Source of the DNA: a virus
Virus record (IMG/VR): IMGVR_UViG_3300032096_000019
Span: 1-60,571 of that record
Direction: 5' to 3' (one strand)
DNA: 60,571 nt
The position numbers were made by a program, and so were the translations under genes. Below, piece after piece: positions 8,229 to 37,075 of this stretch (position 1 is its first letter; each line of letters opens with the position of its first letter). The notes beneath the pieces are model-generated. The model searched no databases, was not told the origin of the DNA, and worked only from the letters and a program-made list of their open reading frames with translations.

Positions 8229-8230
8229 CA

Positions 8231-10534: not shown

Positions 10535-10556
10535 CTCATTGGTTTAATAAATATTG

Positions 10557-10612: not shown

Positions 10613-10641
10613 GAACCGGTTTCCTGCTATCTTTATCTATT

Positions 10642-10738
10642 TTGTCATCTTTATTCAAACAACAATCCTTATAAATTATTCCACTACCACACGGACAGGG
10701 CTCAGTCTTTCGTATATAAATTAGTAAAAAACAAAATA
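10642..10738 (-). pseudogene. SEC-C motif fragment
   Basis: A minus-strand open frame encodes EPCPCGSGIIYKDCC, an excellent SEC-C zinc-binding motif (CxC...CC), as found at the C-terminus of SecA and many stand-alone proteins. There is no start codon and no body upstream: the frame begins just after the next gene's stop. It is best read as the tail of a gene lost by deletion. Confidence 0.55.
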
Positions 10739-10745
10739 ATTCTCC

Positions 10746-11318
10746 TTACATTTCAATAATATAGAATTTACTATGGGCGTTTAAATTTTCCCATACAAAT
10801 TCATGTCTACCCGATAGAGATATGAAGTCGACATTCTTTGCCCGACCGGTAGGTTTGTAAATGTCTCCATAGACAGCATATTCTTGTCTGAAATATCTAT
10901 AAATACCATCGTTTATTCTTCCTTCGTAAAAGGGTCTATCCGATACTAGAACAACACAGGCAGTTTTATTAAATCCCCGATCCTTAAGTTCTTCCATAAA
11001 TTTTATGTCTTTTGCAAAAGAGTACATTTGCTCAGGATACTGACCATTCATTGGACATTTCATCTCTATAGCATACTTTTCATGTTTGTCTTGTGTAAAG
11101 ATTGTAACATCAATTTCCTTTTTTATCGTTTTGTTATCTCGTGTGAAAAATGAAACATTACGCTCAAATTGCACTTTATACTGCGGCAGCATGGTTCTTA
11201 AGTAAATCCCCAGTTCATGTACCAGGCTGAATTCATTATAAATTTCTATGTTTTTGTCTCTAACAAACTTAAAAAAGCTTTCAACTAACCTTTTCAATTC
11301 TAACAACAAAGCCACCAC
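10746..11318 (-). CDS. Putative PD-(D/E)XK nuclease-like protein, 190 aa
   Basis: A small alpha/beta protein. KKEIDVTIF (Asp, ~residue 70) followed by KYAIEMKCP (E-x-K, ~85) gives the D...ExK pattern of restriction-like nucleases, and a helix with MYSFAKDIKFMEEL follows as expected. The C-terminal half contains ACVVLVSDRPFYEG. This resembles uncharacterised proteins annotated only as hypothetical in defence islands. The start is uncertain: the first codons are GTG GTG and the upstream ribosome site is weak, so translation could begin further in. A SEC-C fragment lies directly downstream. Nuclease activity is inferred from the motif; the target is unknown. Confidence 0.5.
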   Translation of the reverse strand: MVALLLELKRLVESFFKFVRDKNIEIYNEFSLVHELGIYLRTMLPQYKVQFERNVSFFTRDNKTIKKEIDVTIFTQDKHEKYAIEMKCPMNGQYPEQMYSFAKDIKFMEELKDRGFNKTACVVLVSDRPFYEGRINDGIYRYFRQEYAVYGDIYKPTGRAKNVDFISLSGRHEFVWENLNAHSKFYIIEM

Positions 11319-11409
11319 CTGTAATCACAAAGTCTTCCCCATTGATTTTCTGAAACAATCGTACAATCTAGATATCCATAGAAAATTAGACTAAGCCCCC
11401 CCTTTGGGC

Positions 11410-11865
11410 TCATAAAAGAGATGTTATCATCTTTTCAAATAAGTATGGACGAAGCCTCGGCATGTTTTTCTTGGACAAATTAAGCCCATACTCTGGTTTG
11501 CTTTTTAACTCTTCATAGTCCTTATCGCAAAAGAGGTCATTGGGGGCTTTCCAAGTAACTGCAGGAATAAGATAAGCGTCCGGCAGCCTGCCATCTTCAA
11601 ATATAAATAGTACAAGATAATTATCCTGGTTAGTTATGTTCCACTTTTCCTTTTACATAAAAACATAATTGGTTTGACGTACTGACTTTACTTGAATCTC
11701 GAAAAATCGTCCTTCCTTCGTTTTTGCTATAAAATCTATTCCATGATCATCAACCTCTGATGTATATACCTCAAATCCGTAAGAAGCAAATTCCATCTTC
11801 GCATAATACTCCGCATATCTACCAAGCTGCAGTTTATTTAACCGCGACCAAATTGTATTAGGCAT
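11410..11865 (-). pseudogene. DUF4365-like nuclease-fold protein with an in-frame TAA
   Basis: The first 70 residues contain GIDFIAKTKEGRFFEIQVKS, a D...(E)xQVK core like that of DUF4365 and related endonuclease-fold proteins. A TAA at 11653-11655 stops translation after YVFM, but the same frame continues for another 80 codons (KEKWNITNQDNYLVLF ... LRPYLFEKMI) to a TGA at 11410-11412. The continuation reads as an ordinary conserved protein end, so the stop is a nonsense mutation or a sequencing error. If the original codon was CAA, one C-to-T change explains it. The short N-terminal product keeps the catalytic core but probably cannot fold properly. Confidence 0.75.
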
Positions 11866-11921
11866 CTCAATTCTCCATTAATAAATTTTGTTGAGCAAAT
11901 TTCACCATATACATTTTTATC

Positions 11922-12027
11922 TTACCACCTTTTCCCATATTTTTTAAGAGCCTATTTGTCCAACAACTCATTAGTCCGATCTACAGTTGGATCAAACCTG
12001 CCAGCCTTTTTTATTCCCCAATAAATT
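11922..12027 (-). pseudogene. Eroded C-terminal relic of a 553-aa-type protein
   Basis: The frame IYWGIKKAGRFDPTVDR...ELLDK-stop-ALKKYGKRW lines up with the last 40 residues of the gene at 12897-14558 (IDWAKKKADWLDP ... KALKKFGQHWW). One TAG interrupts it. Nothing else of that copy remains. It sits directly downstream of the 271-aa gene, implying that a second copy of the 553-aa gene once stood here. Confidence 0.65.
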
Positions 12028-12044
12028 CAAGTGGTATTTTTACC

Positions 12045-12860
12045 TCATAACGCAGTATAATCGATAATCTGTTCAGGTGTAATAGTAACCCCACTCCCCA
12101 TATAAGCAATAATTTCCGAACCGCCACGTTCGAAACTTCTGCTAACGGCATTTGAAATCAGCCATTTCTTAAGTATTAACCTACTCTCCATATCTTCCCA
12201 ATAATTGTCTTCATAATCATAAAAAGAATACCAAGCAAATTGATCGAAATCAGCAAGAAAGGTAACAATATACCCTTTGCTCTTTGTGCACCAAATTTTT
12301 TCAACCTCTTTTATGCGTGGAATAAGACTTGATAAGTTCATTAAAAATTCCGGTCTGCAATGAATATCTGTTCCATAACGGGCAATATCATCTATTGAAA
12401 AAAAGGCATTCACTTGCGGATCGAAATATATTTTTCTAGCAACTTCTCTAATGCGTTCTTCTTCAGATGTAAGCCTAAATCGACCCCTAAATTTATCATA
12501 GTCAATATCAATTACTTTCTCGCCTATAACGAGGGCTTTATTCTCGATATCAAATTTAACACCATATTCTAATAATAAATTCCTTAATGTTGTCTGCTCC
12601 GACAAAACCGCCTGTAAATTTTTTATCCCTTGCATTTTAATTTCCAAACAATCATCCCAGTTAGATGTTACGTGAAGAGCCTTATATTTTAAGTGATCAA
12701 TGTTAGTCGAGTCGATGTAGTCCAATCGTTTATTCCAAAATGAATCAAAATCATTATTGCATTCGATTATATACTCATCTATAAAACCGCTACCTGTAAT
12801 ATTAAAAAAATCTTGAATGAACTTGAAAGCTGCGTCCGGTGTGCTAATATCAAAAATCAA
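12045..12860 (-). CDS. Unrecognised cytoplasmic protein, 271 aa
   Basis: No family recognised. The N-terminal third is acidic and aromatic (FWNKRLDYID), with HVTSNWDDCLEIKMQG near residue 63, followed by a helix-rich stretch. The C-terminal half has FFSIDDIARYGTDIHCRPEF and FDQFAWYSFYDYEDNY. No signal peptide, membrane helix or obvious nuclease motif. It begins 36 bases after the 553-aa gene on the same strand and probably shares its transcript. Between the two lies TTTAAGAATTTGG rather than a strong ribosome site. A relic of a second 553-aa-like gene lies just downstream, so the two genes may be a mobile pair. Function is unknown. Confidence 0.6.
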   Translation of the reverse strand: MIFDISTPDAAFKFIQDFFNITGSGFIDEYIIECNNDFDSFWNKRLDYIDSTNIDHLKYKALHVTSNWDDCLEIKMQGIKNLQAVLSEQTTLRNLLLEYGVKFDIENKALVIGEKVIDIDYDKFRGRFRLTSEEERIREVARKIYFDPQVNAFFSIDDIARYGTDIHCRPEFLMNLSSLIPRIKEVEKIWCTKSKGYIVTFLADFDQFAWYSFYDYEDNYWEDMESRLILKKWLISNAVSRSFERGGSEIIAYMGSGVTITPEQIIDYTAL

Positions 12861-12896
12861 TTGATCATCACCAAATTCTTAAAAGATTTAACTTTA

Positions 12897-14558
12897 CTAC
12901 CACCAATGCTGGCCAAACTTTTTTAACGCTTTCTGATCCTCGTTTTTTTCGTGCTCCCGCTTACCAAACAACTCATCTTCTCTAGCCACAATTGGATCCA
13001 ACCAATCAGCTTTTTTCTTTGCCCAATCTATCCAGTTCACCGTTTCTTCATCCATTCCATCTTGGCTAGCAGAATCCTCCATAGCTTTGACATAGGCTCT
13101 TATTCTAGACGCTCTCTCATAGTCCAAGGCCGCGTTCTCCAGCGCAATTGTCCGCTCGACTTCTTCATTATATCGGTTCCGGCGTTCTTCCTCCCGCCTC
13201 TCTTCTTCCATACGTTTACGCTCGGCTTCTTCACTGGCTTCACGCTCAAGTCTAAGAACTTGGGATTCTTCGTAAAGTGCTATTAAAATATCACCTAGCC
13301 TGGATTCAATAGACATCTTATCGGTTTCTCTGAAATGTCTGCGTTTCCGAATACTAACTCTCAGCCGCCCATTGAATACGTAGTCATACTTTCTGATTTG
13401 GGGTTCACTGGCCCATGTATTATGGCGTTTTGCGTCTTCATAAAGAAGCAAGTCCTTTGCTTCTTGCCTAGTGATTTCATGCTTTATTTTATCTTGGGAC
13501 TCAGAAACTTCAAAATGCACATACTCACCTCTAATCTGGAGAGATAGATCATCATTGACAGTACCACCTAGGTTTTCAACCTGTCGAAAAAGAGCATCAA
13601 GTATGCGATAAACTCGTGGGAGGGTTTCATTTGAAATAACTCCGGCAAGAAAGGGCGGACGTTTAGAATAGTAATAATTATTGAAGCCTTTTTGTGCGCC
13701 TTCAGGTCTCATGTTATTTTTATTCCATTCTTTGACCACAGACTTGTAGGCTGTTATCTTTTTGTGCAGTTTCACATTTTCAGGTGATACCTTGATTTGT
13801 TGTGCAGCAAGTAGTACTTTTTCTCTCTCGGCTTCTGATAAAAAAGCGAGCGGCTGCGAAGCTGTATTAGTTTCCTTTTCTCCTTCAAAGGTTCTTGCCC
13901 CAACTATTTCAGTGACCCCCTTTGTTTTTGGGAGCGGGGTCTTTTTGGGTTTTGCCCCAGCACGAATCTTTGACCAGTAGCCACGGGGTGGAACAGGTAC
14001 ATTAAGCGATTTACAGATTTTATGTATTGCAACGTCTGACACTCCATATTGAGCAGCAACATCAACAACCGGATTTGCCCACACCTGTTCATATAATTTT
14101 TCACGGTTATAAATGTTATGCTTACCATCCACAGTACGATAAATATGCTGCTTGTCACGAGGTGTACCCGAACCTTCAGTGACCAGCTGATTATCAGTTG
14201 CCTCAGATTCTTCTGTAGTGTTAACTTCGGAATTTAAGTTTTCCTCAACTTTGACCTCTTTACTAACTTCGGTAACAGTAGTAAATACGGCAGTGCGTTT
14301 TGACCTTTTCGGAGCCGAGTTGTCGGGCAGCGTAACTTCAGTAATCGAGGATTCCGGCAACGGAGTTTTTGTTACGGTTTTGCCGAAATTCAATTGAGTC
14401 CAGTATCCCGATGGTGGGTATGGGATATTTGTTTCTTTGCACAACTTAAGTAATTTGGCATAAGGCACATTATATTTCTTGGCGACACCGGACACGGAGA
14501 TCTCCCAGATCTCATTATACAATTGTTCTCTGGATAATTTTGTGGTTTGCTCTGTCAA
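12897..14558 (-). CDS. Double helix-turn-helix coiled-coil protein, 553 aa, unknown function
   Basis: Two copies of one N-terminal module are visible: LYNEIWEISVSGVAKKYNVP ... GYWTQLNFGK (~12-60) and LYEQVWANPVVDVAAQYGVS ... GYWSKIRAGA (~154-205). Each looks like a sigma-type helix-turn-helix with a conserved PPxGYW turn, joined by a low-complexity Thr/Glu linker. The middle (~240-420) is mixed alpha/beta. The rest is a long charged coiled coil (EERREEERRNRYNEEVER) ending WADWLDP-like and W-rich. This repeat is known from hypothetical proteins in accessory regions; no activity is established. DNA binding is inferred. It is followed by the 271-aa gene, and an eroded paralogous tail lies beyond that. 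Confidence 0.6.
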   Translation of the reverse strand: MTEQTTKLSREQLYNEIWEISVSGVAKKYNVPYAKLLKLCKETNIPYPPSGYWTQLNFGKTVTKTPLPESSITEVTLPDNSAPKRSKRTAVFTTVTEVSKEVKVEENLNSEVNTTEESEATDNQLVTEGSGTPRDKQHIYRTVDGKHNIYNREKLYEQVWANPVVDVAAQYGVSDVAIHKICKSLNVPVPPRGYWSKIRAGAKPKKTPLPKTKGVTEIVGARTFEGEKETNTASQPLAFLSEAEREKVLLAAQQIKVSPENVKLHKKITAYKSVVKEWNKNNMRPEGAQKGFNNYYYSKRPPFLAGVISNETLPRVYRILDALFRQVENLGGTVNDDLSLQIRGEYVHFEVSESQDKIKHEITRQEAKDLLLYEDAKRHNTWASEPQIRKYDYVFNGRLRVSIRKRRHFRETDKMSIESRLGDILIALYEESQVLRLEREASEEAERKRMEEERREEERRNRYNEEVERTIALENAALDYERASRIRAYVKAMEDSASQDGMDEETVNWIDWAKKKADWLDPIVAREDELFGKREHEKNEDQKALKKFGQHWW

Positions 14559-16097: not shown

Positions 16098-17687
16098 CTA
16101 TATCTTTGAATTCAGTTCCATTCCGTCCTTAAAAGTAAAAACAATCTCATGCTCAGGATGAACCGTCACCGCATCCACTGTTGCATTCCAAAGTTCCTCA
16201 TCAAATTCAGTCAAGAGCGTGTCACTCTTCTCCAACATCCGAATAAAAGCCCCTATACTTTCACGTTTGGCATTTCGTTCCAGCCGCTTATTATCAATCT
16301 CATCAAGTCCTTTTTTGGCGGCTTCATAACGTTCCACCAAGCTTGTATAATGCTGCTGGTATTCCCCCTGGTCAAGAGCAGAATGGGCGTTTTCCTCCAC
16401 ACACTTTCGGAGCAGTTCTGCCGCAACCTCACTTTCACTTTGGAACTTGGCGCTTTCTTTTTCAAACTCTGACGTATCGGTTAGGTCATTAATAATGGCT
16501 TCATAGTTTTGCAGGATTTCCCCTTTATTCTCAAGTAGGCTGTTAAAAGTATCTAAAAATGCCTCTTTGATTTTATCTTCATAAAGGTGCGGTGTCTGGC
16601 ACTTATTATTGTTTTTAAACTTATGATTGCATTGCCAAATGGTCCTGCGGTATTTGCTGGTAGAATGCCACACCTTACTGCCGAAGAAGCCCCCACACTC
16701 ACCACAGATAATTTTTCCTGAAAAACAACCACCACCCGTCTTATATCCCTTGGCATTTTTCCGTTTCTTAAGCTCATGCTGGACAAGATCGAAAACTTCC
16801 GGCGTTATGATTGCAGGATGACTGTTTTCCACGTAATACTGTGGAATCTCACCTTCATTGACCTTCTTTTTCTTGGTAAGAAAATCAACGGTGAAAGTCT
16901 TCTGAAGCATCGCGTCACCTTTATATTTTTCATTCTGAAGGATGCTCGTTACGGTACTGGTTTGCCATTTCTGTTTGCCCGATGGCGTCAGTATGGAACT
17001 TTTCGTAAGATGCCTTGCTATACCCGAAGGAGTCTTACCTTCAAGGAACAATTTATAAATCAACCGCACTGTTTTGGCTTCCGATTCAACAATCTTAGGA
17101 AGCCCATCATCACCCTTTTCGTAACCAAGGAATCTTCCGTAGGGTAGGCTAATCTTTCCATCAGCAAACCGCTTTCTTTGACCCCAGGTAACGTTCTCTG
17201 AAATACTCCGACTCTCTTCCTGGGCCAAGCTGGACATGATGGTTATAAGCAGTTCACCCTTGCTGTCCATGGTGTGGATGTTTTCCTTCTCGAAGTAGAC
17301 TTCCACGCCTTTTTCTTTAAGCTGTCGGACGGTGCTAAGAGTATCAACAGTATTTCTGGCAAATCGGGATACTGATTTTGTAATAATAAGGTCGATTTTA
17401 CCGATCAGAGCGTCGGCTATCATCCTGTTGAAACCTTCACGCTTTTTTGTGCTTGTAGCTGATATACCTTCATCGGCATAGACTTCTACGAATTCCCAAG
17501 CCGGATTTGATTTGATGTGCCTCGTGTAATAATCTACCTGCGCCTCGTAGCTTGAAAGCTGTTCGTCATTGTCCGTTGAAACCCTTGCGTAGGCGGCAAC
17601 CCGTCTTGTGGCTGGAGTTCCGGCAGTTATCGGTGCAAAGCGTTCTGCTGTTGCCGGAATAACTTTTACTGCTCTTGCTGAACACAT
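16098..17687 (-). CDS. Large serine recombinase (C'), 529 aa
   Basis: Catalytic domain with RVAAYARVSTDND, ADEGISATS, SVSRFARNT and FEKENIHTM; Recombinase domain with HPAIITPEVF; zinc-ribbon CGECGGFFG ... WQCNH; then a long coiled coil (~400-500). All expected active-site residues appear present. Its N-terminal two thirds closely match recombinase C at 5976-7568; the coiled coil has diverged more. It starts inside the 3' end of recombinase D' (overlap 17566-17687), using GGAGGAAAGC as ribosome site. Its place after the lysis genes fits the integrase of a clostridial or Listeria-type prophage, so it is the best candidate, with D', for integration and excision of this prophage. Confidence 0.93.
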   Translation of the reverse strand: MCSARAVKVIPATAERFAPITAGTPATRRVAAYARVSTDNDEQLSSYEAQVDYYTRHIKSNPAWEFVEVYADEGISATSTKKREGFNRMIADALIGKIDLIITKSVSRFARNTVDTLSTVRQLKEKGVEVYFEKENIHTMDSKGELLITIMSSLAQEESRSISENVTWGQRKRFADGKISLPYGRFLGYEKGDDGLPKIVESEAKTVRLIYKLFLEGKTPSGIARHLTKSSILTPSGKQKWQTSTVTSILQNEKYKGDAMLQKTFTVDFLTKKKKVNEGEIPQYYVENSHPAIITPEVFDLVQHELKKRKNAKGYKTGGGCFSGKIICGECGGFFGSKVWHSTSKYRRTIWQCNHKFKNNNKCQTPHLYEDKIKEAFLDTFNSLLENKGEILQNYEAIINDLTDTSEFEKESAKFQSESEVAAELLRKCVEENAHSALDQGEYQQHYTSLVERYEAAKKGLDEIDNKRLERNAKRESIGAFIRMLEKSDTLLTEFDEELWNATVDAVTVHPEHEIVFTFKDGMELNSKI

Positions 17688-18993
17688 GTAGCTTTCCTCC
17701 TTTCCAGTATTTTAGCTGGCGTTCCCGGGCCTGCTGACGGGCTTCTTCACTCCAGCTTTCACTGCGTGATTTGTTCTGCCATTCCTTTTGGACAGTGCGG
17801 CCGTCACGGAAAACAAATACCAGCAGGTTAGAATCAATAGCCTGTATTTCCTTTATCTTTTGCTCAAATACCGTTTCATCAAACTCTTTAAGTCCTAATA
17901 CCTCTACAGCTATCGAAAGCAGGATGTCCTCGGGGATTTGCTTGGTATGGCAGCTATCCTTGCCATATCGCAGGTAGGTAGAGCATTTCCATGAAGCCCG
18001 CCCGCATGCAGCTTTTCGGTTATAATTTTTCCCGCATTTGCTGCAGACAATTTTACTGGTGAAAGGGTATTGCTTGGGGTCATTTTTTCCAGCATTACTA
18101 TCTCTGTTTTTAGCCATAATCCCCTGAGCTTTTTGGAAAGTAATCTCATCAATTATTGGTGGATGGGTGTTTTCAGCATAATATTTTGGAAGCATACCTT
18201 TGTTGCGCACCAATGTCTTTGTCAAATGGTCTTTAACATACTTTTTCTGAAGCAACGCATTCCCTGCGTATTTTTCATTTTTGATGATCTCCGCAACTCT
18301 CTCCGAGTTCCAAGTACCCCCTCGAGGTCGTGCAACACCCATACCAGACAACTTTTTTGCAATCAAGGTGCAGCCCATACCGCCGATATAATCTGCAAAA
18401 ATCATGCGAACTATTTCTGCCTGTTTGGCGTCAATTTCAATTTCACCATTTTCAATGCGATACCCATACAAAAACCTTAAGTTTACAAGCTCTCCGTCAG
18501 CAAAAGCTTTTCGAATACGCCACTTGCAGTTTTCACTGACCGAACGGCTCTCTTCTTGCGCAAAAGAAGCGAGGATGGTAAGCATTAACTCACCATCCCC
18601 GCTCATTGAGTGGATATTTTCTTTTTCAAAATAGACATCAACATTGATGCTCTTTAACTCTCGTACCGTTTCTAACATAGTAACCGTATTCCTTGCGAAC
18701 CTGGAAATGGACTTGGTTAGAACTAAGTCTATTTTACCGTTTCTGCAGTCGCTCAAGAGCCTCTGGAACTCTGCTCTGTTATCTTTGGTGCCGGTCATTG
18801 CTTCATCTGCATAAACACCGGCATACTCCCATCCGCGTTGCTTTTGAATATAGTCGCTGTAATAACTGATTTGAGCTGATATAGAGTGAAGCATTGCATC
18901 TTTGCCACTGGATACTCTGGCATAGGCGGCAACGCGCTTCTTAACTGGTATTGTTGCCTTTATTGGCTCGATTTTTCGGATGGTTCGCGCCAT
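17566..18993 (-). CDS. Large serine recombinase (D'), 475 aa
   Basis: Intact serine recombinase: RVAAYARVSSGKD (nucleophile), ADEAMTGTK, SISRFARNT, FEKENIHSM, then Recombinase domain with HPPIIDEITF and zinc-ribbon CSKCGKNY ... WKCSTY. The last ~45 residues, from GGKLHVFSKSSK, overlap the start of recombinase C' in another frame and read as non-conserved sequence, so the protein may recently have gained a longer tail by loss of its stop. The truncated recombinase D at 7547-7921 is its paralogue. Two overlapping recombinase genes of different subtypes suggest they work together. Transcription probably starts upstream, where the HTH/zinc-finger and SHOCT-like genes lie in line. Confidence 0.92.
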   Translation of the reverse strand: MARTIRKIEPIKATIPVKKRVAAYARVSSGKDAMLHSISAQISYYSDYIQKQRGWEYAGVYADEAMTGTKDNRAEFQRLLSDCRNGKIDLVLTKSISRFARNTVTMLETVRELKSINVDVYFEKENIHSMSGDGELMLTILASFAQEESRSVSENCKWRIRKAFADGELVNLRFLYGYRIENGEIEIDAKQAEIVRMIFADYIGGMGCTLIAKKLSGMGVARPRGGTWNSERVAEIIKNEKYAGNALLQKKYVKDHLTKTLVRNKGMLPKYYAENTHPPIIDEITFQKAQGIMAKNRDSNAGKNDPKQYPFTSKIVCSKCGKNYNRKAACGRASWKCSTYLRYGKDSCHTKQIPEDILLSIAVEVLGLKEFDETVFEQKIKEIQAIDSNLLVFVFRDGRTVQKEWQNKSRSESWSEEARQQARERQLKYWKGGKLHVFSKSSKSYSGNSRTLCTDNCRNSSHKTGCRLRKGFNGQ

Positions 18994-21051: not shown

Positions 21052-23394
21052 TCACATATACATAAATAGTTGAATAAACAAACTGGCATTTATCCTACCT
21101 AAAATACTGCTGCCTAGCTCTAAATTATGCCAGCCTGGCGACGTTATATGGGGGGATAATTGGAGTTCATTCTTGTTTTCGTTAAATGGCCCCCCAAGTT
21201 GCGCAGTAATATCAGTTCCGTCCAGAGTAATTGATATGTCAGCCGGGGCAGTTCCCTCATATATACCAAAAACCAAATTGTGAGTATGGTCCCCTAAAGA
21301 AACCATATGGCGATGATTCGGTAAATACATGTTGTGAGCATGAAACGGCAAAGAAACAGCGTGGGTATGGGAAACTGATAGCATAGCGTGAGCGTGATCT
21401 CCGGCATAAGTATTGTGAAGAATATGGTCATGATAGCCACTTTGTACCCATGAAACACTACCCGTATCGGTGATAAGGGTAGTGCCATGCTCAATTCCAT
21501 GGTTATGCGTACCATCTTTCTCCATGGTATTATCGTGAAAATGATAGCCCGCCATATCCATAAAATCGGGTAATAGATACTGTGAGGGAGAGAGAATCCA
21601 CAATCCAGGCTCGCTGGTATCTATGTCGCCGCCACCTGACTCAGTGGATGTAAAGGTATAACCACCATCTTCAGTGGATGCATAAACACCACCTCCTGAT
21701 GCTGCTCCGGTTTCATAGGCTCTAAACCATTCCTTGGTAAAGCTGAGTTTAAACTGCTTACCATTTAATAGATTGGCTCCAGGTGGAACATAGAAAATTA
21801 TCTTAAGGGGATGAGTGGCATCTACATTATCTACTACATGCAACTGCCAAGTTTGCAGCATACCACGATCATCTAAAATAACTGTCGTCCCATCTGATGC
21901 TGTAATCCTTAAACCAAAACGCTCTGTAGCGTCCACCTGCCAATGACCGGCATGGAGGCGTTCAATATTATTCTCATCATATACATGTAAACCATCAGAC
22001 ATGATTTTGGTATATTCATCAGCGGTAGATAATGCATAAAGTTCGTTAATCACTACGGTACTTGATAGCACACCTTCTCCGGTTACTGCTGTTTTGTAGC
22101 TTTGCCCACCGTCTTCAGTGATACCAAGTCCCCCTGGCGATAGGCGTACCCCCTTGCCATTTCGCCTGCCTTCAGCATCAATGCCCCAAAAGTCTATTGT
22201 GTTGTCAGTAATAGTTAGCAGCCCATTTGTACCATTGATTAAGGTGGTGGCGGTATTGATAAAGCCTTGTAACAGGCTATTGGCATGGCGGTTCCGGGTA
22301 ATTATTCTCGCAGTAGTCACAGCCGGTTTCACAGCATCACTTATCTGCGGTTTCGGAGTTCCCACGTTAATGCTGTTTCTCTGCGGTTCATAGGGGTATT
22401 CAACCATTTCAATTACTCGTACCCTTAAGCGTACAGAGATATCTTGCGGCCCGGTATATTCTACCGTTACCCAATCCCCCACCTCTATTTTATAAAGGGC
22501 CTCAGCATACAAGCGGTAAAGGTCAGCCAGCTTCACACTCACACTAAGCTTGGGCCAAGCGACGACCGCGAGCTTTCTTCGCCCCTGCTCCAACAATTCA
22601 CTAGGGTCAGCGATCTTGTCATAGGTAACCACATCTTCTCGCACCAAACGCTCCCTTATGATGCTGTCAGCCGTGTTGTAGCCGAGGGCTGTGAAAAAGG
22701 AGAAGTTTTCAATATAGCTATAGCCACCATTGACACTAGCGATATCTACGCCATCCTTTCCTTTCACATATAGCCTGGTTACCAGCCCCTTCGAGTCGTA
22801 GCTTAAATCCAAGCTGGCTAAATTTCTTCCTGAACGAATAGTCACCCCGTTATCCTGGCCAATATCGTTATATAGGCTCACTGTTTTTTCCAGAGTATCA
22901 AATTGCACGAAAGGCCCGTAACAATATTCCTCCACTGCCCCGTATAGTTTAAGTAGCTCGTTTAAAGCTTCCAGACGATTAAGATTTTCCAAACGGACAT
23001 CACGGAGAGTGGTGATAGTGGGGTCGCAATACTTTAAAGTCCAGCCCGTATTCTCAAGTACCCTGGCTACTGCATAGCTCATACTAGCATTAGAAAAGGC
23101 TAGCTCGCCGTCAATATAGCGATAGAGCAGTTCCTCTGCTGAACACACACAGGATACACTGATAAACCCCTCATCTGTCAAAGTGGCTGAAGGGCTTTTT
23201 ATGATATACTCACTACCCTCAAAGTAAATTCTGTTTTCGCTTTCGATAAGCCGCAGGGTCTTTTCATTAACCAGGCAATTAAACTTTAGGGTGCTCATGC
23301 CATTACTACTTCTTACCCGACAAAAATCACTTAGTTCCTTTTGTCCCAAATAGCCTAATCGCTTGATACCAGCTGCATCATATATCTCAAGCAT
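21052..23394 (-). CDS. Tail-associated (Tal/prophage endopeptidase-like) tip protein with HxH fibre
   Basis: The N-terminal ~370 residues match the prophage tail endopeptidase/Tal fold of siphophage tips (FEGSEYIIKSP; VGDWVTVEYTG; RVIEMVEYPYEPQ followed by R...NVG). The middle (~400-560) is a fibre-like stretch with LYALSTADEYTKIMSDG and TERFGLRIT. Residues ~615-708 hold eight H-x-H motifs (HFH, HNH, HDH, HAH, HTH, HAH, HRH, HTH), the pattern that coordinates metal ions along trimeric fibre needles such as T4 gp37. The last ~70 residues form a small beta domain. It probably opens or contacts the host wall, with the tail forming a metal-stabilised receptor needle. It is located directly after the Dit-fusion gene. 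Confidence 0.82.
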   Translation of the reverse strand: MLEIYDAAGIKRLGYLGQKELSDFCRVRSSNGMSTLKFNCLVNEKTLRLIESENRIYFEGSEYIIKSPSATLTDEGFISVSCVCSAEELLYRYIDGELAFSNASMSYAVARVLENTGWTLKYCDPTITTLRDVRLENLNRLEALNELLKLYGAVEEYCYGPFVQFDTLEKTVSLYNDIGQDNGVTIRSGRNLASLDLSYDSKGLVTRLYVKGKDGVDIASVNGGYSYIENFSFFTALGYNTADSIIRERLVREDVVTYDKIADPSELLEQGRRKLAVVAWPKLSVSVKLADLYRLYAEALYKIEVGDWVTVEYTGPQDISVRLRVRVIEMVEYPYEPQRNSINVGTPKPQISDAVKPAVTTARIITRNRHANSLLQGFINTATTLINGTNGLLTITDNTIDFWGIDAEGRRNGKGVRLSPGGLGITEDGGQSYKTAVTGEGVLSSTVVINELYALSTADEYTKIMSDGLHVYDENNIERLHAGHWQVDATERFGLRITASDGTTVILDDRGMLQTWQLHVVDNVDATHPLKIIFYVPPGANLLNGKQFKLSFTKEWFRAYETGAASGGGVYASTEDGGYTFTSTESGGGDIDTSEPGLWILSPSQYLLPDFMDMAGYHFHDNTMEKDGTHNHGIEHGTTLITDTGSVSWVQSGYHDHILHNTYAGDHAHAMLSVSHTHAVSLPFHAHNMYLPNHRHMVSLGDHTHNLVFGIYEGTAPADISITLDGTDITAQLGGPFNENKNELQLSPHITSPGWHNLELGSSILGRINASLFIQLFMYM

Positions 23395-23407: not shown

Positions 23408-25360
23408 TTACAGCCACATTTCCGAAAACTCTATCTCTAAGTTTCCAGCGGAGGTACTGATCTCAGTTTCGCCCGGTTCAAGATATAAAAAATCCCCTTC
23501 AGCCAAATGTGCTGCCGGGGCACCGTTTAAGGTGATTTCTAATTTTTCGCTATCCACAATAAATATATCGGTGCTGCCAAGTGATGTATTAATATATATC
23601 TGGCTGTCACCGATGCTAATTACCGGAAATTCTGCCGGACCAGTAAGGGTTAACCTGAGAGGCGTTTTTTGTGAACCCCGGTTTAATAGCCAAACGCTAC
23701 CTGAGGTTTTGTAATACTGGGGTACACCATAAATAAAAGGTTTCGAACAATTGAATTGAAGATTAAGTATTTCCATTGAACCGACAGTTTCCATGACGGT
23801 TTTCCCCCGAAGCCTTCCTTTATAAACATTGAAATACTCATCATCAAAGCGAAGCTCACATTCTCCCTTTTTGGGATTAAGCAAAGTATTTAGCTCCTTC
23901 TGGGCAGCTACTAAGGCCGACCGGCTATCATGCTTTAATAGGCCCTTTACTACAATGGTTCGCTCCTTGAATTCGGTGTGATGATAGTAGGTACCATCCA
24001 TGCCAGGAAGCTTTGTGCTTGTTTCCTCCCCTTCAGGAATTTCCCAGCGCCCCTTAACATCAATGATGGAAAGTCCAAAGGTTGAGGTATCCACTCCGTC
24101 AAAATAAAGCTTTCTTGGCATACCGCTAGCAAAGGCTTCTAGATTAAAAAAGCCGGTGAATATACGCGCTGTCGCTACCATCTCCACCGTTTTATCTTCA
24201 AGTGACCAGTAATATAGTCCGTTGGAATTAGGGTCTAGACTATCTACCTGCACCTTCATCAACGCTTGTTCTGTTTTATAGTCATACGTCCCTCCTGTAA
24301 GACGAAGGGCCTCAAGGTAAAAAATAGTGGCTTGAGTAGCCAGATCGGGGAACTCGCTATCCTTTACTCCTGTATAGGTATATACATCATAGAAAAAGCC
24401 GTTTATCATTAAAGCTTTAGCCCTAGCAACAAAGATCGCGGCCCCACTGCCTTCATTTTTAGCCAAACCCAGCACCGACCACAGAACTGTATCTGAAGTC
24501 CAGTTAACATCTCCCCACTGGTTATATACCGGCGATAGGTTCTTGCCAGTATAATCACTTGTGCCTTCTATGGGGGCCATATACATATAAGGCAGACCTA
24601 CCGTTTCCATTACTCCCCGCTGGCTTTGTATGCAATTTGTGCGGATAAAGTTATGAAATCTATCATTAATGTCCCCGATATAGTAAGTCCCGCCCTCAGC
24701 AGTTTGCTGGCTATTTCCAAATGCAGCTATTGCAGTTTGCACCAGGTCATAGGCAATATCCCCGAGATGCAGTGGCACACGCCCGTTAACGGGATAGAAT
24801 TCTACTCCGGCATCTGTGCGGAGATAAAATTCAGGAAAAGCACCGTCCAAATATGCAGGCAGTTCGGTGCCGCAAAGGGAAGAAAAAGCAGTCTGCACTT
24901 TATAAATGCTCTCAATCAGCTTTAAAGACCACTGTTTGTAAGTATCTTCTCCACAACGAAGGTATAAGCGGCTTAAACCGTAAGCTGATAAGAACAAATC
25001 CCTTGTATATACCTCGCAATAACCATCATCTTTTCGTCTTTGCCATTGCTGATTATCAGTATTAAAGTAATGTATGGATTGAAAGTACATGGTTTGGCCA
25101 TTGACAGTAGTCTCGATAATATTATCAATCAAATTATCTGCGATTAGCTTAGCCTTATCTATCGCGTCCTTAGTACCATAGGAGCATAAGAAAATAAGCG
25201 TCCAGGCGCTGGAGGGAACTAGGGTGGCCGCTCTGGTTGCTTCCCCGGCACCCTCTGTATAATTAAGTAATACCAATCCCAACGGGGGGTTAGGGAAAAG
25301 ACGGTAAAAACTATCTGCGCTATCAGTGACAATCAGTTTACTATTCAATAGTTCTCGCAT
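23408..25360 (-). CDS. (alpha/alpha)6-glycosidase-like domain fused to distal tail (Dit) protein, 650 aa
   Basis: Two parts. Residues ~1-405 are helix-rich with repeated hairpin signatures (VYTRDLFLSAYGLSRLYLRC; LGDIAYDLVQTAIAAF; SDTVLWSVLGLAK; LATQATIFYLEALRL) like six-hairpin toroid glycosidases. From ~412 (KLYFDGVDTSTFGLSIIDVK) the protein is a distal tail protein of the siphovirus RIFT type, with ERTIVVKGLL, LNTLLNPKKGECELRFDDE and the beta-sandwich C-terminus. Normal Dit proteins start near the second part, so the sugar-hydrolase-like domain is an N-terminal addition. It lies between the Tal gene and a second glycosidase-like gene, two bases from each. The catalytic acids of the first part could not be assigned; it may bind or cleave cell-surface glycans. 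The Dit assignment is strong. Confidence 0.75.
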   Translation of the reverse strand: MRELLNSKLIVTDSADSFYRLFPNPPLGLVLLNYTEGAGEATRAATLVPSSAWTLIFLCSYGTKDAIDKAKLIADNLIDNIIETTVNGQTMYFQSIHYFNTDNQQWQRRKDDGYCEVYTRDLFLSAYGLSRLYLRCGEDTYKQWSLKLIESIYKVQTAFSSLCGTELPAYLDGAFPEFYLRTDAGVEFYPVNGRVPLHLGDIAYDLVQTAIAAFGNSQQTAEGGTYYIGDINDRFHNFIRTNCIQSQRGVMETVGLPYMYMAPIEGTSDYTGKNLSPVYNQWGDVNWTSDTVLWSVLGLAKNEGSGAAIFVARAKALMINGFFYDVYTYTGVKDSEFPDLATQATIFYLEALRLTGGTYDYKTEQALMKVQVDSLDPNSNGLYYWSLEDKTVEMVATARIFTGFFNLEAFASGMPRKLYFDGVDTSTFGLSIIDVKGRWEIPEGEETSTKLPGMDGTYYHHTEFKERTIVVKGLLKHDSRSALVAAQKELNTLLNPKKGECELRFDDEYFNVYKGRLRGKTVMETVGSMEILNLQFNCSKPFIYGVPQYYKTSGSVWLLNRGSQKTPLRLTLTGPAEFPVISIGDSQIYINTSLGSTDIFIVDSEKLEITLNGAPAAHLAEGDFLYLEPGETEISTSAGNLEIEFSEMWL

Positions 25361-25361
25361 G

Positions 25362-27362
25362 TTATTTACCCCCGCTTGCTAAAAACAGGCGGTTCATCAT
25401 TTCAAGATAGGCTGCGTATGACCAGGAAAAGGACCAGGCTCCGCTTAAATAGCCAAGCCTATTCCCATTCTTTAAATCTGCCTGCACATATTCAGGCAAG
25501 GACCCGAAAGGAAAATTATTAGCTAGAAGCTTAAGCGGCTTTAAATCACCCTCTTCAGCCGCTAACATGGCAATAATACAGACATGCGGAAACCAGATAT
25601 CTTTCTTTTTTGCTGTTCCTGTGCTGCTTTGGGAAAAGCCTACCCCATGGTCAAGTTGTAACCCCAGCCCTCCCAGGGTTGCAACTGCAGTTCTGCTCTT
25701 AAGCCAATTGAAACATGACTTGTCATTAAGCATCCAGGCTGCGAAAATATTAGCTGGCACCGTTAAAACACTGTCATACAGCGTCCCATCCTGTTTAATA
25801 GCATAATCAAAGCCCCCGTCCTCCCGGCGGTAATCAGCTAACCCCTGCTTAAGAAGACTAAGTGCGTTCACCCCAAAGGTAACCCTGCTGTTATCACCTA
25901 AGCTTCTATATACCGGGATAAGATTCTCAAGAGCATAAATCCATAAGATATCCACCATGCTTTCATATTTCACCAACGATGTTGTTATCTCACTAGCATA
26001 GTCATCCCAATAATCATGAACATGCCGGGCTAAAATATGTCTATCTGCCTCTATAAAATTGTCCTCTAGGTAGGTAAACAACTGATCTAGCTGCGGTTTT
26101 AACCCTGACAGCAATTGTTTATCATTAGTGTGCCTAAAGTATTTACCGGCTGCCGCCAGGAATACAGCCGCATTATCGGTGTTGTTATAGTTGTATTCCC
26201 CGGTACCATCTATATCAAAGTCGTTTACTGTTAACATGTTCTTACCTTCAAACCAGCTGAGAAACTGGGCAGCTAGTGCCGGTTTTATTGGGATGAGGGC
26301 ATGGATCGCCCAGGCAGTATCACGCACCCAGTTATAAGGCCAATTGGGAATTCCCGCTGACAAATAGCCGCCCACCGACAAATTAAGGATTTGCATGAGA
26401 GAAAAATATCCCTTGGCCTTTATTGCTTCCGGGGCAAACCACTGCCTTTCTAAACCGGAAAAGTATTCACACCACATGTTCTCTGCGTCCGTATATTCAC
26501 TTTCCCAATTTGAGAGGCCAGCTACCGCTTTTTCCATTACCTCAGCCTTACTCCTGCCTATGGCGATAGCAAAAACTACACTACCGCGTTCACCCAGACC
26601 ATCCGTACCCATACCAACAAAACAACTTGAATGGCTAACAGTAGTTTTAGTCTCATCCAATGCATAGATAGGTGTGAACTGAACTGAATCCACCTGATAT
26701 TCATTCATATTGGTGCAGCTTAAAGCCGCAAACCAGCCGCTATTATGTTCTTCTACCCAAATTACGCCCTGGCCATTATAAATCTCGTACGCTGCAGACA
26801 AATCATGTTTATCTGGCTGGCCGGAATCCCACCCTACCCATTCCATGGCAATCTTTAAATCATTGATGTTTTGGGCATCGGCAATTATGTACAGTACGTT
26901 ATTTCGCGAAAAGGATAGTATATCTAAGGCACGTACCTTGCCGTTATAGTCCCTGGCATAGTGCCACTCCACAATACCGGTAGGATAGCCATCTTTACAT
27001 TTAAACTTAGTTTCAAAACTGGTATTTTCGGAATTACAGGTGTTCGCTACCAAAGGATAGTAGCCCATGTCACAGGTTTTAGCCGCTATGGCCGTATTGA
27101 CATCTCTTTTTCCCGACTTAGCTAACAGCATAGATAAGAAAGGGCGTATATCTACGCTGGATATCTGATCATTTAGCACCATCGCTATTTCAGAAGTAGG
27201 GTCACTTAGTACGGCCCGCCCGGCAAAATCACTGTGCAAAGTTGAGTCATTAAGGCTAAAACCCTCTGCTGCTAAGGCTGAGGTCAAACGCTCCGGGGAC
27301 AAATCAAGCACATAACCGTTTTTAGTGTTAATAATATTCGGTATATCAAAGGCGCTTCTCAT
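25362..27362 (-). CDS. GH15/glucoamylase-like (alpha/alpha)6 glycoside hydrolase in the tail module, 666 aa
   Basis: The N-terminal ~280 residues are beta-rich, like the super-sandwich domain of glucoamylase-type enzymes. The rest is an (alpha/alpha)6 barrel containing IPNWPYNWVRDTAWAIHALI (~338-357), the WxRD-A stretch of GH15-type enzymes, YNYNNTDNAAVFLAAAGKYF, HVHDYWDD (acidic pair) and GGFDYAIKQDGTLYDS. Length and layout fit an alpha-glycan hydrolase. There is no signal peptide, and the gene overlaps the tape-measure gene by four bases, so the product is a virion part, probably a tail-tip depolymerase or sugar-binding adaptor for the host surface. Similar function was not confirmed by experiment. 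Glycosidases of this fold are rarely reported in this tail position. Confidence 0.72.
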   Translation of the reverse strand: MRSAFDIPNIINTKNGYVLDLSPERLTSALAAEGFSLNDSTLHSDFAGRAVLSDPTSEIAMVLNDQISSVDIRPFLSMLLAKSGKRDVNTAIAAKTCDMGYYPLVANTCNSENTSFETKFKCKDGYPTGIVEWHYARDYNGKVRALDILSFSRNNVLYIIADAQNINDLKIAMEWVGWDSGQPDKHDLSAAYEIYNGQGVIWVEEHNSGWFAALSCTNMNEYQVDSVQFTPIYALDETKTTVSHSSCFVGMGTDGLGERGSVVFAIAIGRSKAEVMEKAVAGLSNWESEYTDAENMWCEYFSGLERQWFAPEAIKAKGYFSLMQILNLSVGGYLSAGIPNWPYNWVRDTAWAIHALIPIKPALAAQFLSWFEGKNMLTVNDFDIDGTGEYNYNNTDNAAVFLAAAGKYFRHTNDKQLLSGLKPQLDQLFTYLEDNFIEADRHILARHVHDYWDDYASEITTSLVKYESMVDILWIYALENLIPVYRSLGDNSRVTFGVNALSLLKQGLADYRREDGGFDYAIKQDGTLYDSVLTVPANIFAAWMLNDKSCFNWLKSRTAVATLGGLGLQLDHGVGFSQSSTGTAKKKDIWFPHVCIIAMLAAEEGDLKPLKLLANNFPFGSLPEYVQADLKNGNRLGYLSGAWSFSWSYAAYLEMMNRLFLASGGK

Positions 27363-29539
27363 AACCTCACCCCAGTCAAATACATTTGTTCTTTTAAAAG
27401 CTCTGCTATCTTTTGGCTCAATTTATATATATCCAGGTCATTAGCCATTTCCATTCTTTCTACCGAGAGTAAGTTCTCTATCTGCAAACTAGAAGTCCGG
27501 CTGGTAGTTCTATCCGCAGGAACCGCCTCTTTTAAAATATTTGTATTGCCTAAGTTCGAAATACTTCCTGCTAGGTCCATGGCAGCAGACCTTATATCGG
27601 GAATACCCTTTTTGATGCCACTTTCCAGCATAGAGATCATATTGGGCATCCATCTATCAGCTTTACTGCCCGGCCCTTTTTCAGTTGGCGAGGAAAAGCC
27701 TAGGTATCCTTTCACGGTATCTGCTACCCTTGCAGTAGCATTTCTTACCCATTTAATACCGGATAAGATGCCATCAGCAATATTCTTTATAAGATTTGCT
27801 CCCCACTGGGCACCGTTAGAGATAAAATCAGCCACCCATGATTTAACGCGGTTAAATGTAGTTTGAATGCTTGAGACGATACTTGAAGCGGTGCTTTTAA
27901 TGCCGTTGTAAATCCCGGTAAACCACCGGCCAATAGCAGCCAATAGATTATTGATAAAGGTGCGAAACTGCTCGCAATTCTCATAAAGATACTTAAATGC
28001 TCCGGCAAAGGGATTAACCATCAAGAGCAAGATGCTCTGCCAATTATCTTTAAAGAAACTAACCACGTTGTTAAACAGATTGACCATAAAATCAATAGCC
28101 TTATTAACTCCATCAACAATTCCATCCCAGATAGCGATAACCGCCTTTTTAAAGTCTTCATTGGTATTCCATAGATAGACGATTGCTGCCACCAATGCGG
28201 CCAGGGCGATAACAACAAGACCTATGGGATTGGCTGACATGGCCGCATTAAGTAGCCACTGAGCTGCTGCCGCTGCCTTTTGAGCCACAGACAAAACGGT
28301 TGTCTTTATTGCTGCGATATTTTCCGCATCGGCAAGCCACTTCACAGCATTCACTGCAGCGCCGACACCACTTGTGAGATTGCCCACAAGTGAAAGGAGA
28401 GGACCTATTGCTGCGGCAAAACCGATGAAGGAAAGAATCAGTATCTGCGAGCCGTTGTCAAGGTTTCCAAACCAATCGACTAAACCAGTCAGCTTTCCAA
28501 TAAGGCCCTCGATGGCAGGCATGGCCGAATTGACCGCCTGCATCAAAGATGAACCGAGTGGCTCTAATGCAACAGCAGCCCTGTTTTTCATTATGGTCAG
28601 CTGCTCAGCAAAATCTATGGTTTCAAAAGCGGCTCCGTTGATAGTTTCACTGCTCGTTTGTAAGGTTTTCACTAGATCTGACAGTTCAAACCTGCCTTCC
28701 CTAATGGCAGCAGCCATATCGGGGCCTATGCGAGTACCGAACATTTCAAGGGCGATGGCATTGGCTTCACCGGTGGAGCCTGCCTCCTTTATTCTTTTAG
28801 TAACCTCTTCAAGAGCCGCCTTGGTATCGGTAATACCTTCTTGGGCCATCTTGCCCAGTGCTATACGAAGTCCGCCAAGCACTAGCTCGGTGTTGACCCC
28901 TTCCTTTTCAAACTTACCGAGCATAGCAGCTGAGGTCTCTAGGTCAAAGCCCATTTGACGAAGTGGCGCTCCAAACTCCACCATCTTGGCGTTCAGATCA
29001 TTAAAACCAATTCCGGTGCTTTGGGCAACCTTAAACAAATAGTCCATGGTGCCTGCAGTATCACCGGCCGCCACACTCCAGTCTCCAAAAAGGCGCGATG
29101 AACTTGATATCATACCTGATAAATCCTCTCCAGTAATGCGAGAGAGGTTCAGCATCTGGGTGGATAACTCCTGCAGTGGTTTGCCTGCAAGCCCGGTTCT
29201 CGTATTAAGATCGGCAATGGCAGTGCTCACATCCTCCATTCCAGCCGGAACGGAAGCATAAACTGCCTTGAAATCATCCTGAAGGTCCTGAAGTGCTGCA
29301 CCTGTGGCTCCGGTTCCGACTCGAATTTTCTCGAAAGTATCATCAAAGTCCATCCCCAGCTTTAAAATTCCTGTGGTAGCGGCGGCGATGGGAAGAGTCA
29401 GCCCCTTGGTTAAGGTGCCACCAATGGAAGCGAGGCTTTTACCGGCTTTATCCAATTTTTTTGCAGCACTGTTCAAGCTTTTTTGTAGCTCTGAAATATC
29501 CGCTCCGATTTTCACCACAACACTTCTAATTACTGCCAT
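27359..29539 (-). CDS. Tail length tape-measure protein, 726 aa
   Basis: Siphophage tape measure. The N-terminus is a coiled coil (ISELQKSLNSAAKKLDKAGK), followed by the TP901-type core with TRTGLAGKPLQELSTQMLNL and LRQMGFDLETSAAMLGKFE. Hydrophobic helices at ~365-390 (ILILSFIGFAAAIGPLLSLV) and ~432-452 (PIGLVVIALAALVAAIVYLW) are the membrane-piercing segments seen in this family. The C-terminus has FSSPTEKGPGS. It sets tail length and is packed inside the tube. It is preceded by the frameshifting chaperone genes, the standard siphophage order. Confidence 0.95.
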   Translation of the reverse strand: MAVIRSVVVKIGADISELQKSLNSAAKKLDKAGKSLASIGGTLTKGLTLPIAAATTGILKLGMDFDDTFEKIRVGTGATGAALQDLQDDFKAVYASVPAGMEDVSTAIADLNTRTGLAGKPLQELSTQMLNLSRITGEDLSGMISSSSRLFGDWSVAAGDTAGTMDYLFKVAQSTGIGFNDLNAKMVEFGAPLRQMGFDLETSAAMLGKFEKEGVNTELVLGGLRIALGKMAQEGITDTKAALEEVTKRIKEAGSTGEANAIALEMFGTRIGPDMAAAIREGRFELSDLVKTLQTSSETINGAAFETIDFAEQLTIMKNRAAVALEPLGSSLMQAVNSAMPAIEGLIGKLTGLVDWFGNLDNGSQILILSFIGFAAAIGPLLSLVGNLTSGVGAAVNAVKWLADAENIAAIKTTVLSVAQKAAAAAQWLLNAAMSANPIGLVVIALAALVAAIVYLWNTNEDFKKAVIAIWDGIVDGVNKAIDFMVNLFNNVVSFFKDNWQSILLLMVNPFAGAFKYLYENCEQFRTFINNLLAAIGRWFTGIYNGIKSTASSIVSSIQTTFNRVKSWVADFISNGAQWGANLIKNIADGILSGIKWVRNATARVADTVKGYLGFSSPTEKGPGSKADRWMPNMISMLESGIKKGIPDIRSAAMDLAGSISNLGNTNILKEAVPADRTTSRTSSLQIENLLSVERMEMANDLDIYKLSQKIAELLKEQMYLTGVRL

Positions 29540-30180: not shown

Positions 30181-30795
30181 TTAATCCTCCCTATAATACA
30201 GCTTACCGCTGCCTTCAAATTCAATGCTTTCATTTACTACACCATCAGCTGAAAGCTTAATGCTGTCCCCCGAAATCCTCCCATAGCCCTCATATCGTTT
30301 TTTATTGGTACCAGTGTCCAAATACAAGGCAATGATCACTTCCTGGCCGAGCCTTGAGGACAGTCTTTCATCAGCCCAATAGCTCTCTGCAGCAGCAGTA
30401 AAGCCGTTTATGGTGGGGAGGTTCTCTTTCCAGCCACCGCTTTCAAAGGTGCTCACATCAACAGTGTCCGATGAAAGATCTGCGCTCCAGCTAAAGAAGC
30501 CTCCTGCCTGGTCTACCCGAATGCTCTTTCCACTGACTGTCACAGTATCAGTACCAAGCAGGGGTACGGGAAAGATAATGACACCGCCCAAATGCCGGGC
30601 TTCAAAATTGCCATTATATTGGACATCGTTTATATAGACGGTTATGGGAGAGTTTCTATCTAAGTACCGACATAACTCATCGGTGATAGTGTAGTGCGTA
30701 AATTCAATATTGGCTGTGGCTGCTTCTTTAATGAATGTCTCATGCACATCTTCTGTTTGCAAAAACACCGCACCAACCTTACCTGCTATTGTCAT
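30181..30795 (-). CDS. Tail tube-like structural protein (long paralogue), 204 aa
   Basis: Starts MTIAGKVGAVFLQTEDVHET. The second half (FSWSADLSSDTVDVSTFESG ... FEGSGKLYYRED) runs parallel to the neighbouring 127-aa protein (WSLDLGVDTLDVTALGDD ... FEFQGTGPLTYN). Both look like the beta-sandwich tail tube fold. The first half has an extra ~90-residue domain not present in the neighbour. It could be a second tube subunit, a decorated tube protein or a terminator-like variant. It lies between the tube gene and the chaperones. Confidence 0.65.
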   Translation of the reverse strand: MTIAGKVGAVFLQTEDVHETFIKEAATANIEFTHYTITDELCRYLDRNSPITVYINDVQYNGNFEARHLGGVIIFPVPLLGTDTVTVSGKSIRVDQAGGFFSWSADLSSDTVDVSTFESGGWKENLPTINGFTAAAESYWADERLSSRLGQEVIIALYLDTGTNKKRYEGYGRISGDSIKLSADGVVNESIEFEGSGKLYYRED

Positions 30796-30809: not shown

Positions 30810-31193
30810 TTAATTGTAGGTCAGTGGACCAGTTCCCTGAAATTCAAAGGAAATGCTCACCGTATCGTCCACCGGGTCTTCCACCGACAGTCCTGAAATA
30901 TAAGCGTTTCCTGAATAGTAGTTAGTTGCATTGACATACAGCTTGAGTGATACCTCGGTGCTATTTAAATAGGCATCCTGCAGTGCTTTCTGTCCGGTGG
31001 CATCGGTATGCACCGAATAAAACCCATCTGCCGAGGCTGACCACTCCTTTAAGCCTGCGATAAACTTTTTCCAATCATCACCCAGGGCGGTCACATCAAG
31101 TGTATCAACACCCAGATCAAGAGACCAACTGCTCACATCCACTACGGTACTTACACCCAGCCCCAGTTTTCCGCTTTTGCCTGCAATGGCCAT
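30810..31193 (-). CDS. Major tail tube protein, 127 aa
   Basis: Short all-beta protein with GLGVSTVVDVSSWSLDLG, DVTALGDDWKKFIAGLKEWS, YVNATNYYSGNAYISGL and SISFEFQGTGPL, the pattern of phage tail tube proteins (also Hcp-like). It assembles the tube on the tape measure. Its position after the head-completion genes and before the chaperones is standard. The ATG lies within a good AGGAGG context. Confidence 0.78.
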   Translation of the reverse strand: MAIAGKSGKLGLGVSTVVDVSSWSLDLGVDTLDVTALGDDWKKFIAGLKEWSASADGFYSVHTDATGQKALQDAYLNSTEVSLKLYVNATNYYSGNAYISGLSVEDPVDDTVSISFEFQGTGPLTYN

Positions 31194-36055: not shown

Positions 36056-37075
36056 TTACTCAATTGAAAGACTCCCTGCGAACGAATAATGAATTACGCA
36101 ATTCTTTGGTGTGTTTTTGTACGCCTCTTCGTCGTGCATCTTTTTTACAATTTGTGGAGTGGTAAGTTCCCCGAATTCATTAATAATCTTATCAATTGAA
36201 GCAATCTCATCATCTGAAAGGTTCTTAATTTCAAAACCTGGAGTCGGCTTAAATTTATAGGCAATTTCGTCATATAAAACGATATCAAAACTGACTCCTT
36301 CTAACTTTACAATTTGGTCATGCCCCTCTGGTACAGCGCCCATAGGTAATGCACTATACGCAAGACCTGTTATTGCGTTTCCATGCCTTTTAAAGTTTAA
36401 TATGTCTGAGTACCACAACATCTTCATAAGTTTCACCTTGTGAAGATTACTAACTCTTTGGGCAAGATAATTAATGACTTCAACAACTTTATCAAGCCTT
36501 AGTTCCATAGAGCCAGGCACAGTTTCTTCTTCAAAGTCGGCATAAATTGCATAGATTGCGTCTATAAGATATTGGTTCTTTCTTTTATTGTATTCTTCAT
36601 TAGCCTCATGAAAATATTTAGCAAAAGCTTTTTCTGATAATCTATCTTTTGCTCTTTTAAGCATATCCAGTAACCATTTGGGGTCCGAGTCAATTTTTCT
36701 TAAAACATCATCATGAGCTCTATCCTGTACTTGATGGTTTTCATATCGTGTTATTGTGGCTCCTCCCCAATCAAGGATTTCAGAAAAGTCTTTTTGGCTA
36801 ATTCCGTACTTTTCTCTTAAATTCTTGATCTCACTGGAGGTTAATAAACCCATTTTCTTTCTATAAGCATCTTTTACAGCAAGGTTATTTGCTCTAATCA
36901 TATCCTCTGTTTCCAACAATTCATCCGTGTTAGAGCAATATTCATAGATGGATGTGATTTCTACCTCGCCGCCCTTAAAAATCTCTTTCTCCTCAATTTC
37001 AACAATACTTACATCATGTTCTTCCATACAACTCAAACAGAGTTTGTGCTCGCTTCTTAAAGTTTCCATTTTCAT
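36056..37075 (-). CDS. MqsA-like antitoxin fused to a Panacea (DUF4065/SocA-like) domain, 339 aa
   Basis: Three parts. An N-terminal zinc finger (CLSC at ~14-17, a further Cys near 48); a central helix-turn-helix (LREKYGISQKDFSEILDWGG then ATITRYENHQVQD, ~88-125); and a C-terminal DUF4065 domain (~190-339: VVEVINYLAQRVSNLHKVKL then MKMLWYSDILNFKRHG, YSALPMGAVPEGH). DUF4065 (Panacea) acts as a promiscuous toxin-neutralising domain in PanAT systems. It starts immediately after the toxin stop (toxin first, antitoxin second), the order of MqsRA/HigBA. It should bind toxin and repress the operon through the palindrome at 37576-37591. Confidence 0.78.
   Translation of the reverse strand: MKMETLRSEHKLCLSCMEEHDVSIVEIEEKEIFKGGEVEITSIYEYCSNTDELLETEDMIRANNLAVKDAYRKKMGLLTSSEIKNLREKYGISQKDFSEILDWGGATITRYENHQVQDRAHDDVLRKIDSDPKWLLDMLKRAKDRLSEKAFAKYFHEANEEYNKRKNQYLIDAIYAIYADFEEETVPGSMELRLDKVVEVINYLAQRVSNLHKVKLMKMLWYSDILNFKRHGNAITGLAYSALPMGAVPEGHDQIVKLEGVSFDIVLYDEIAYKFKPTPGFEIKNLSDDEIASIDKIINEFGELTTPQIVKKMHDEEAYKNTPKNCVIHYSFAGSLSIE

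Follow-up and report, generated by a model that had tools for sequence, protein, structure and literature searches.

A prophage tail-tip operon encoding a diverged glycosidase-like protein and a distal tail protein apparently fused to a relative of Thermus phage proteins

In solved siphophages, the distal tail protein (Dit) is hexameric (PMC7291167). Evolved Dits, found in siphophages with Gram-positive hosts, among them Lactobacillus, lactococcal and streptococcal phages and Bacillus phage Deep-Purple, carry carbohydrate-binding modules inserted in loops of their galectin domains (PMC7291167), and it is host saccharides that these modules bind (PMC7291167, PMC9863714). The tail-associated depolymerases and Tal glycosidases that have been reviewed take the form of spikes, fibres or extensions of Tal (PMC7291167, PMC9863714); Listeria PSA Tal and the phi29 tail spike are two cases in which a glycan-active domain belongs to the tail module. 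Here, we describe a prophage locus that shares with the evolved Dits a Dit whose added domain presumably points toward host glycans, and with the tail depolymerases a glycan-active domain in the tail module, which in this case is predicted and resides in the protein P2.

The window analyzed, a stretch of 60,571 nucleotides, is part of a 3.72-Mb bacterial genome assembled as one contig. It contains a prophage whose siphophage late module, on the minus strand, encodes TerL, portal, a ClpP-like protease, an HK97-type capsid protein, two tail-tube-type proteins, a tail chaperone, the tape measure, P2, P1, Tal, holin and an amidase. Four consecutive minus-strand genes concern us here: the tape measure protein (TMP, 27359-29539); P2 (666 aa, 25362-27362), a diverged GH15/GH133-clan glycosidase-like protein situated between the tape measure and Dit; P1 (650 aa, 23408-25360), in which a domain that we call P1N is fused to Dit; and the Tal or prophage endopeptidase tail protein (21052-23394; Prophage_tail, 1.3e-33). 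The first-pass annotation of this DNA had placed P2 between the tape measure and the Dit-fused protein, and its coordinates were exact. TMP and P2 share 4 nt, start to stop, P2 and P1 are separated by 1 nt, and P1 and Tal by 13 nt. The ribosome sites of P2, P1 and Tal are strong, and the G+C content of P2 and P1N is about the same as that of the neighboring genes. P2 and P1N give the impression of residents of the tail module, not of recently acquired cargo.

P2 had been called GH15-like from its sequence alone. In a Pfam scan, no match to PF00723 (GH15) was obtained, and GDE_C (PF06202) was matched below threshold (E 0.013-0.023; 14.1-14.9 bits against a cut-off of 21); P2 lay below every curated family cut-off, in Pfam, including GH15 and GH133/GDE_C, as well as in the other family scans. 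Profile-profile comparison gave a GH15/GDE_C signal. Against a profile of 12 bacterial GH15 proteins, P2 reached an hhalign score of 57.9 (probability 90%) over residues 257-646, which falls within the band of real debranching enzymes, and against two groups of GDE_C proteins it scored 43.8 and 51.5. The maxima of 100 shuffles of P2 were 24.9 for GH15 and 32.6 and 31.3 for the two GDE_C groups, and the reversed sequence scored no higher than 19.9. When 160 real ORFs of 400-900 residues taken from fetched loci were used as a further control, scores at or near that of P2 appeared only in loci that had been fetched as GH15, GDE_C or GH125-type matches. The GH15-like call was thus upheld by profile comparison with shuffled, reversed and real-ORF controls, while the HMM search suggested as its check brought P2 to no curated Pfam cut-off. 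When 300 genomes of the phylum were searched, weak matches of P2 residues ~334-430 recurred on long proteins; of these, two were scanned, and one proved to be a GH125 protein, the other a GDE_C debranching enzyme. Judged from sequence, P2 is a diverged relative of the GH15/GH133 six-hairpin glycosidases at clan level, and because the curated cut-offs were missed, we assign it as a member of neither family.

Alignment of P2 to the 12 GH15 proteins pointed to its candidate catalytic residues. The WxRD-A stretch mentioned in the first-pass annotation was found at residues 345-350 (WVRDTA), and W345-V-R-D348 (26319-26330, minus strand) represents the WxRD motif that GH15 and GDE_C have in common. 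R347-D348, W452-D453 and L622-P-E624 were paired with the W-x-R-D, W-E and L-P-E-Q motifs of GH15, of which we take W-E to supply the general acid and L-P-E-Q the general base. Accordingly numbered, the base E624 (25491-25493, minus strand) is retained, and the acid position is occupied by Asp (D453; 26004-26006, minus strand) instead of Glu. Asp is likewise found at the acid position of GDE_C proteins, whose conserved Asp (W-x-D) and C-terminal catalytic Glu are matched in the alignment by W452-D453 and E624. P2 resembles the GH15 glucoamylase family, GH133 (GDE_C) and GH125 in its catalytic region at clan level, with W-x-R-D, W-D/E and L-P-E in common, but differs from them in lying below the family cut-offs, in its location in a tail operon and in the Asp at the GH15 acid position. 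Since clan-level profile similarity is joined by residues in place at the catalytic positions, P2 is plausibly a working glycosidase.

P2 and P1N might instead be structural or lectin-like tail modules, with P2 retaining the glycosidase fold yet binding without cleaving and P1N acting as a helical spacer or adhesin, so that the assembly would provide grip and not hydrolysis. P2 is very diverged from all of the enzymes compared and has Asp where GH15 has its acid Glu, and known Dit decorations bind but do not cut (PMC7291167, PMC9863714). However, for all this divergence, the W-x-R-D motif and a carboxylate at each of the two catalytic positions are preserved in P2, and we consider a purely gripping role somewhat unlikely.

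From its natural start Met414, P1 (aa 414-650; 23408-24121, minus strand) matches Sipho_tail (PF05709; 1.6e-13, profile positions 4-118 of 118) and SPP1_Dit (PF22768; 2e-10, positions 2-97 of 97), both above cut-off, as well as phrog_33 (1.5e-32) and PDB entry 2x8k (SPP1 gp19.1; E 1e-5). By these matches, the C-terminal part of P1 is a complete, uninterrupted distal tail protein with a ring domain and a C-terminal domain. It lies between the tape measure and Tal, as expected of Dit genes, with P2 intervening on the tape-measure side. In line with the proposed fusion, P1 reads as a Dit preceded by ~410 extra residues in one open frame. We opened and compared 30 Dit loci, that of P1 among them, from the 399 genomes of the phylum that were searched. 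The Dit profile match begins 425 residues into P1 and 8-47 residues into the other 29 Dits, none of which has a comparable N-terminal extension. P1 also departs from the evolved Dits: their carbohydrate-binding modules are inserted in the galectin domain, whereas in P1 a large unrelated domain that matches no Pfam family precedes the Dit, which is itself uninterrupted.

The reading of P1 as a single fused gene depends on a T6 run at codons 404-405 (TTT TTT; 24146-24151, minus strand), located 24 bases before Met414. One T more or fewer ends the frame at once, and a stop in both frames within four codons follows ~5% of codons. P1N and Dit could accordingly be two genes, with a one-base error in the run joining the frame or with slippage yielding both products; Met414 lies 12 residues ahead of the Dit profile match, roughly where other Dits begin. 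Against this, Met414 has almost no ribosome site, with a Shine-Dalgarno energy of -2.6 kcal/mol compared with -10 to -19 for P1, P2, TMP and Tal, and the fusion is favored for this reason, although the holin (-2.9) and portal (-1.5) genes of the same module are equally weak. We judge the two-gene arrangement unlikely.

P1N (aa 1-413 of P1; 24122-25360, minus strand) matched no Pfam, PHROG or NCBIfam family, and hmmscan against phrog_36175 alone was likewise empty. A permissive tblastn search aligned P1 residues 5-331 with P74p100-type proteins of Thermus phages (E 0.01). A profile of four of these Thermus proteins gave P1 32 bits, compared with 4.4 for the best of 2000 shuffles, while the runner-up among 1065 real ORFs got 4.8, and hhalign of P1N against the Thermus proteins returned a probability of 93%. 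P1N is detectably homologous to the P74p100 family (phrog_36175), and the only relatives detected for it are P74p100-type proteins, from the Thermus phages P74-26, P23-45, TSP4 and phiLo. That P1N is a second glycosidase on the Dit, as the first-pass annotation implied, is not supported; it groups instead with these Thermus proteins.

The known family members, including P74p100, P23p101 and phiLo_80, are separate proteins of ~505 aa that have a C-terminal part of their own and are not fused to Dit. In P74-26 and P23-45 only a few genes separate the family member from the tape measure upstream of it, P74p100 being five genes downstream of that of P74-26. In phiLo, phiLo_80 (7488-8999) lies two genes before a 1098-aa M23-peptidase protein (10194-13490), and this proximity hints that the family belongs with cell-wall-penetrating virion proteins. 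The order of parts differs between P1N and its relatives. The N-terminal hairpin found at the start of the Thermus proteins is missing at the start of P1, and their C-terminal part is missing as well; a stretch of P1 seemingly at the other end (aa 366-400; 24161-24265, minus strand) resembles this hairpin with 11.7 bits, the best of 5000 shuffles reaching 10.2. Because the hairpin resembles a P1 segment near the opposite end, the alignment suggests that P1N is circularly permuted relative to the Thermus proteins, which a ring-shaped fold would tolerate.

Structure prediction for P1N with AF2 gave a pLDDT of 36 and a pTM of 0.39 when one relative (P23p101) was supplied, and a pLDDT of 32 from the single sequence. 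The low-confidence model contains about five successive helix pairs (residues 49-86, 116-162, 194-254, 288-320 and 338-368). A Foldseek search of the PDB with this model gave no significant match (E >=0.03); many of the matches were alpha/alpha toroids, among them GH76, AGE epimerases and designed proteins. Profiles of GH15, GDE_C, GH88, GH76 and AGE returned nothing for P1N, which counts weakly against a six-hairpin glycosidase, as true toroid families mostly miss each other in this comparison, and no relationship between P1N and P2 was detected by sequence or profile comparison. The idea that P1N is a second six-hairpin domain is therefore weakly supported: the model does show consecutive helical hairpins, and the six-hairpin families tested offered no sequence tie.

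Apart from the Thermus proteins, no close relatives of P1 or P2 were found in phages, plasmids, viral contigs or genomes. P2 yielded no relatives in phages, plasmids or viral contigs, and among 50,697 phage records none was detectable for P2 and only the Thermus proteins for P1N. DNA patterns for P1N motifs returned P23-45 as the sole true relative in viral contigs; weak genome matches to P1N look like chance. With P1 as the only N-terminal fusion in the 30 Dit loci, the first-pass description of the arrangement as unusual is justified. We found no description in the open-licence literature of a Dit whose N terminus carries a glycosidase-like domain, and no precedent for a GH15-clan enzyme between the tape measure and Dit. 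Two 'Bacteriophage sp.' records with a GH15-type gene, MT839665.1 and MT837254.1, were rejected as phage precedents, as their gene content looks like that of bacterial chromosome fragments.

Our search turned up no genuine phage record with a GH15-type gene, and the GH15 and GDE relatives of P2 are cellular metabolic enzymes. Both observations would fit a P2 that is a passenger, a cytoplasmic or secreted glycosidase that is expressed from the prophage to the advantage of the lysogen and is not built into the virion. P2, however, sits within the tail operon, overlaps the tape measure gene start to stop and has no separate surroundings, and we regard the passenger explanation as very unlikely.

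We propose that the locus is a siphophage-type prophage tail-tip operon in which P2 is a tail-tip alpha-glycosidase that trims host glycan and P1N is a host-surface module on the Dit ring. We infer the virion location, activity, substrate and copy number as well as the role of P1N, and consider the proposal about as probable as not. The clan match of P2 with its controls, the tight coupling of the genes, the intact Dit and the position of P1N kin downstream of the P74-26 tape measure and close to an M23-peptidase protein in phiLo speak for a tail-tip role, as does the precedent of glycan-binding decorations on Dits (PMC7291167, PMC9863714); against a tail-tip enzyme speak the position of P2 under all curated cut-offs and its Asp at the GH15 acid position, the absence of a family of known function for P1N and the T6 run at the junction. 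On this view, the tail tip would carry P2 as a diverged alpha-glycosidase of the GH15/GH133 clan, and as the phage adsorbs or penetrates, the enzyme would trim alpha-linked, probably glucosyl, residues from polysaccharide of the host wall or surface. GH15 enzymes work from chain ends, and for this reason P2 more likely trims decorations, such as glucosyl groups of wall polymers, than cuts chains. As Dit is hexameric in the solved siphophages, six copies of P1N would be displayed at the tail tip, possibly as a decoration that binds or processes host glycan, in a role comparable by analogy to that of the evolved-Dit carbohydrate-binding modules.

A decorated Dit together with a tail enzyme is a known type of arrangement, and it is the component parts that are unfamiliar. 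In its strongest form, the tail tip would pair a GH15-clan exo-alpha-glycosidase with a Dit ring of six circularly permuted (alpha/alpha)6 domains from a family that long-tailed Thermus phages also have. Such an adhesion device, built of two kinds of toroid and processing glycan, would be undescribed so far; we hold this version to be improbable. If the proposal as a whole is right, additions to Dit would not be confined to inserted carbohydrate-binding modules, since a whole large domain may precede the ring; enzymes of the GH15 clan, familiar from the metabolism of starch and glycogen, could act as tail enzymes; and the orphan P74p100 proteins of Thermus phages would be tied to a defined place in the tail, the Dit ring.

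Several other features of the prophage were observed, all on the minus strand. The C-terminal third of Tal ends in a His-x-His run (HDH, HAH, HTH, HAH, HRH, HTH), and its residues 503-778 match phrog_4311; this may be a metal-binding, fibre-like receptor-binding region. The two adjacent tail-tube-type genes (30181-30795 and 30810-31193; 204 and 127 aa) both match Phage_tail_2 and the major tail protein family phrog_1407, and in the 204-aa protein, which may be a decorated second tube protein, the match is confined to the second half. The gene at 36056-37075 (339 aa), adjoining that of the portal, encodes an HTH-domain protein that resembles antitoxins of the SocA/Panacea type and is possibly a member of a toxin-antitoxin pair. 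The lysogeny region contains two overlapping serine recombinase genes (16098-18993) of 529 and 475 aa, the first identified as Resolvase/Recombinase by profile match and the second assigned from its sequence.
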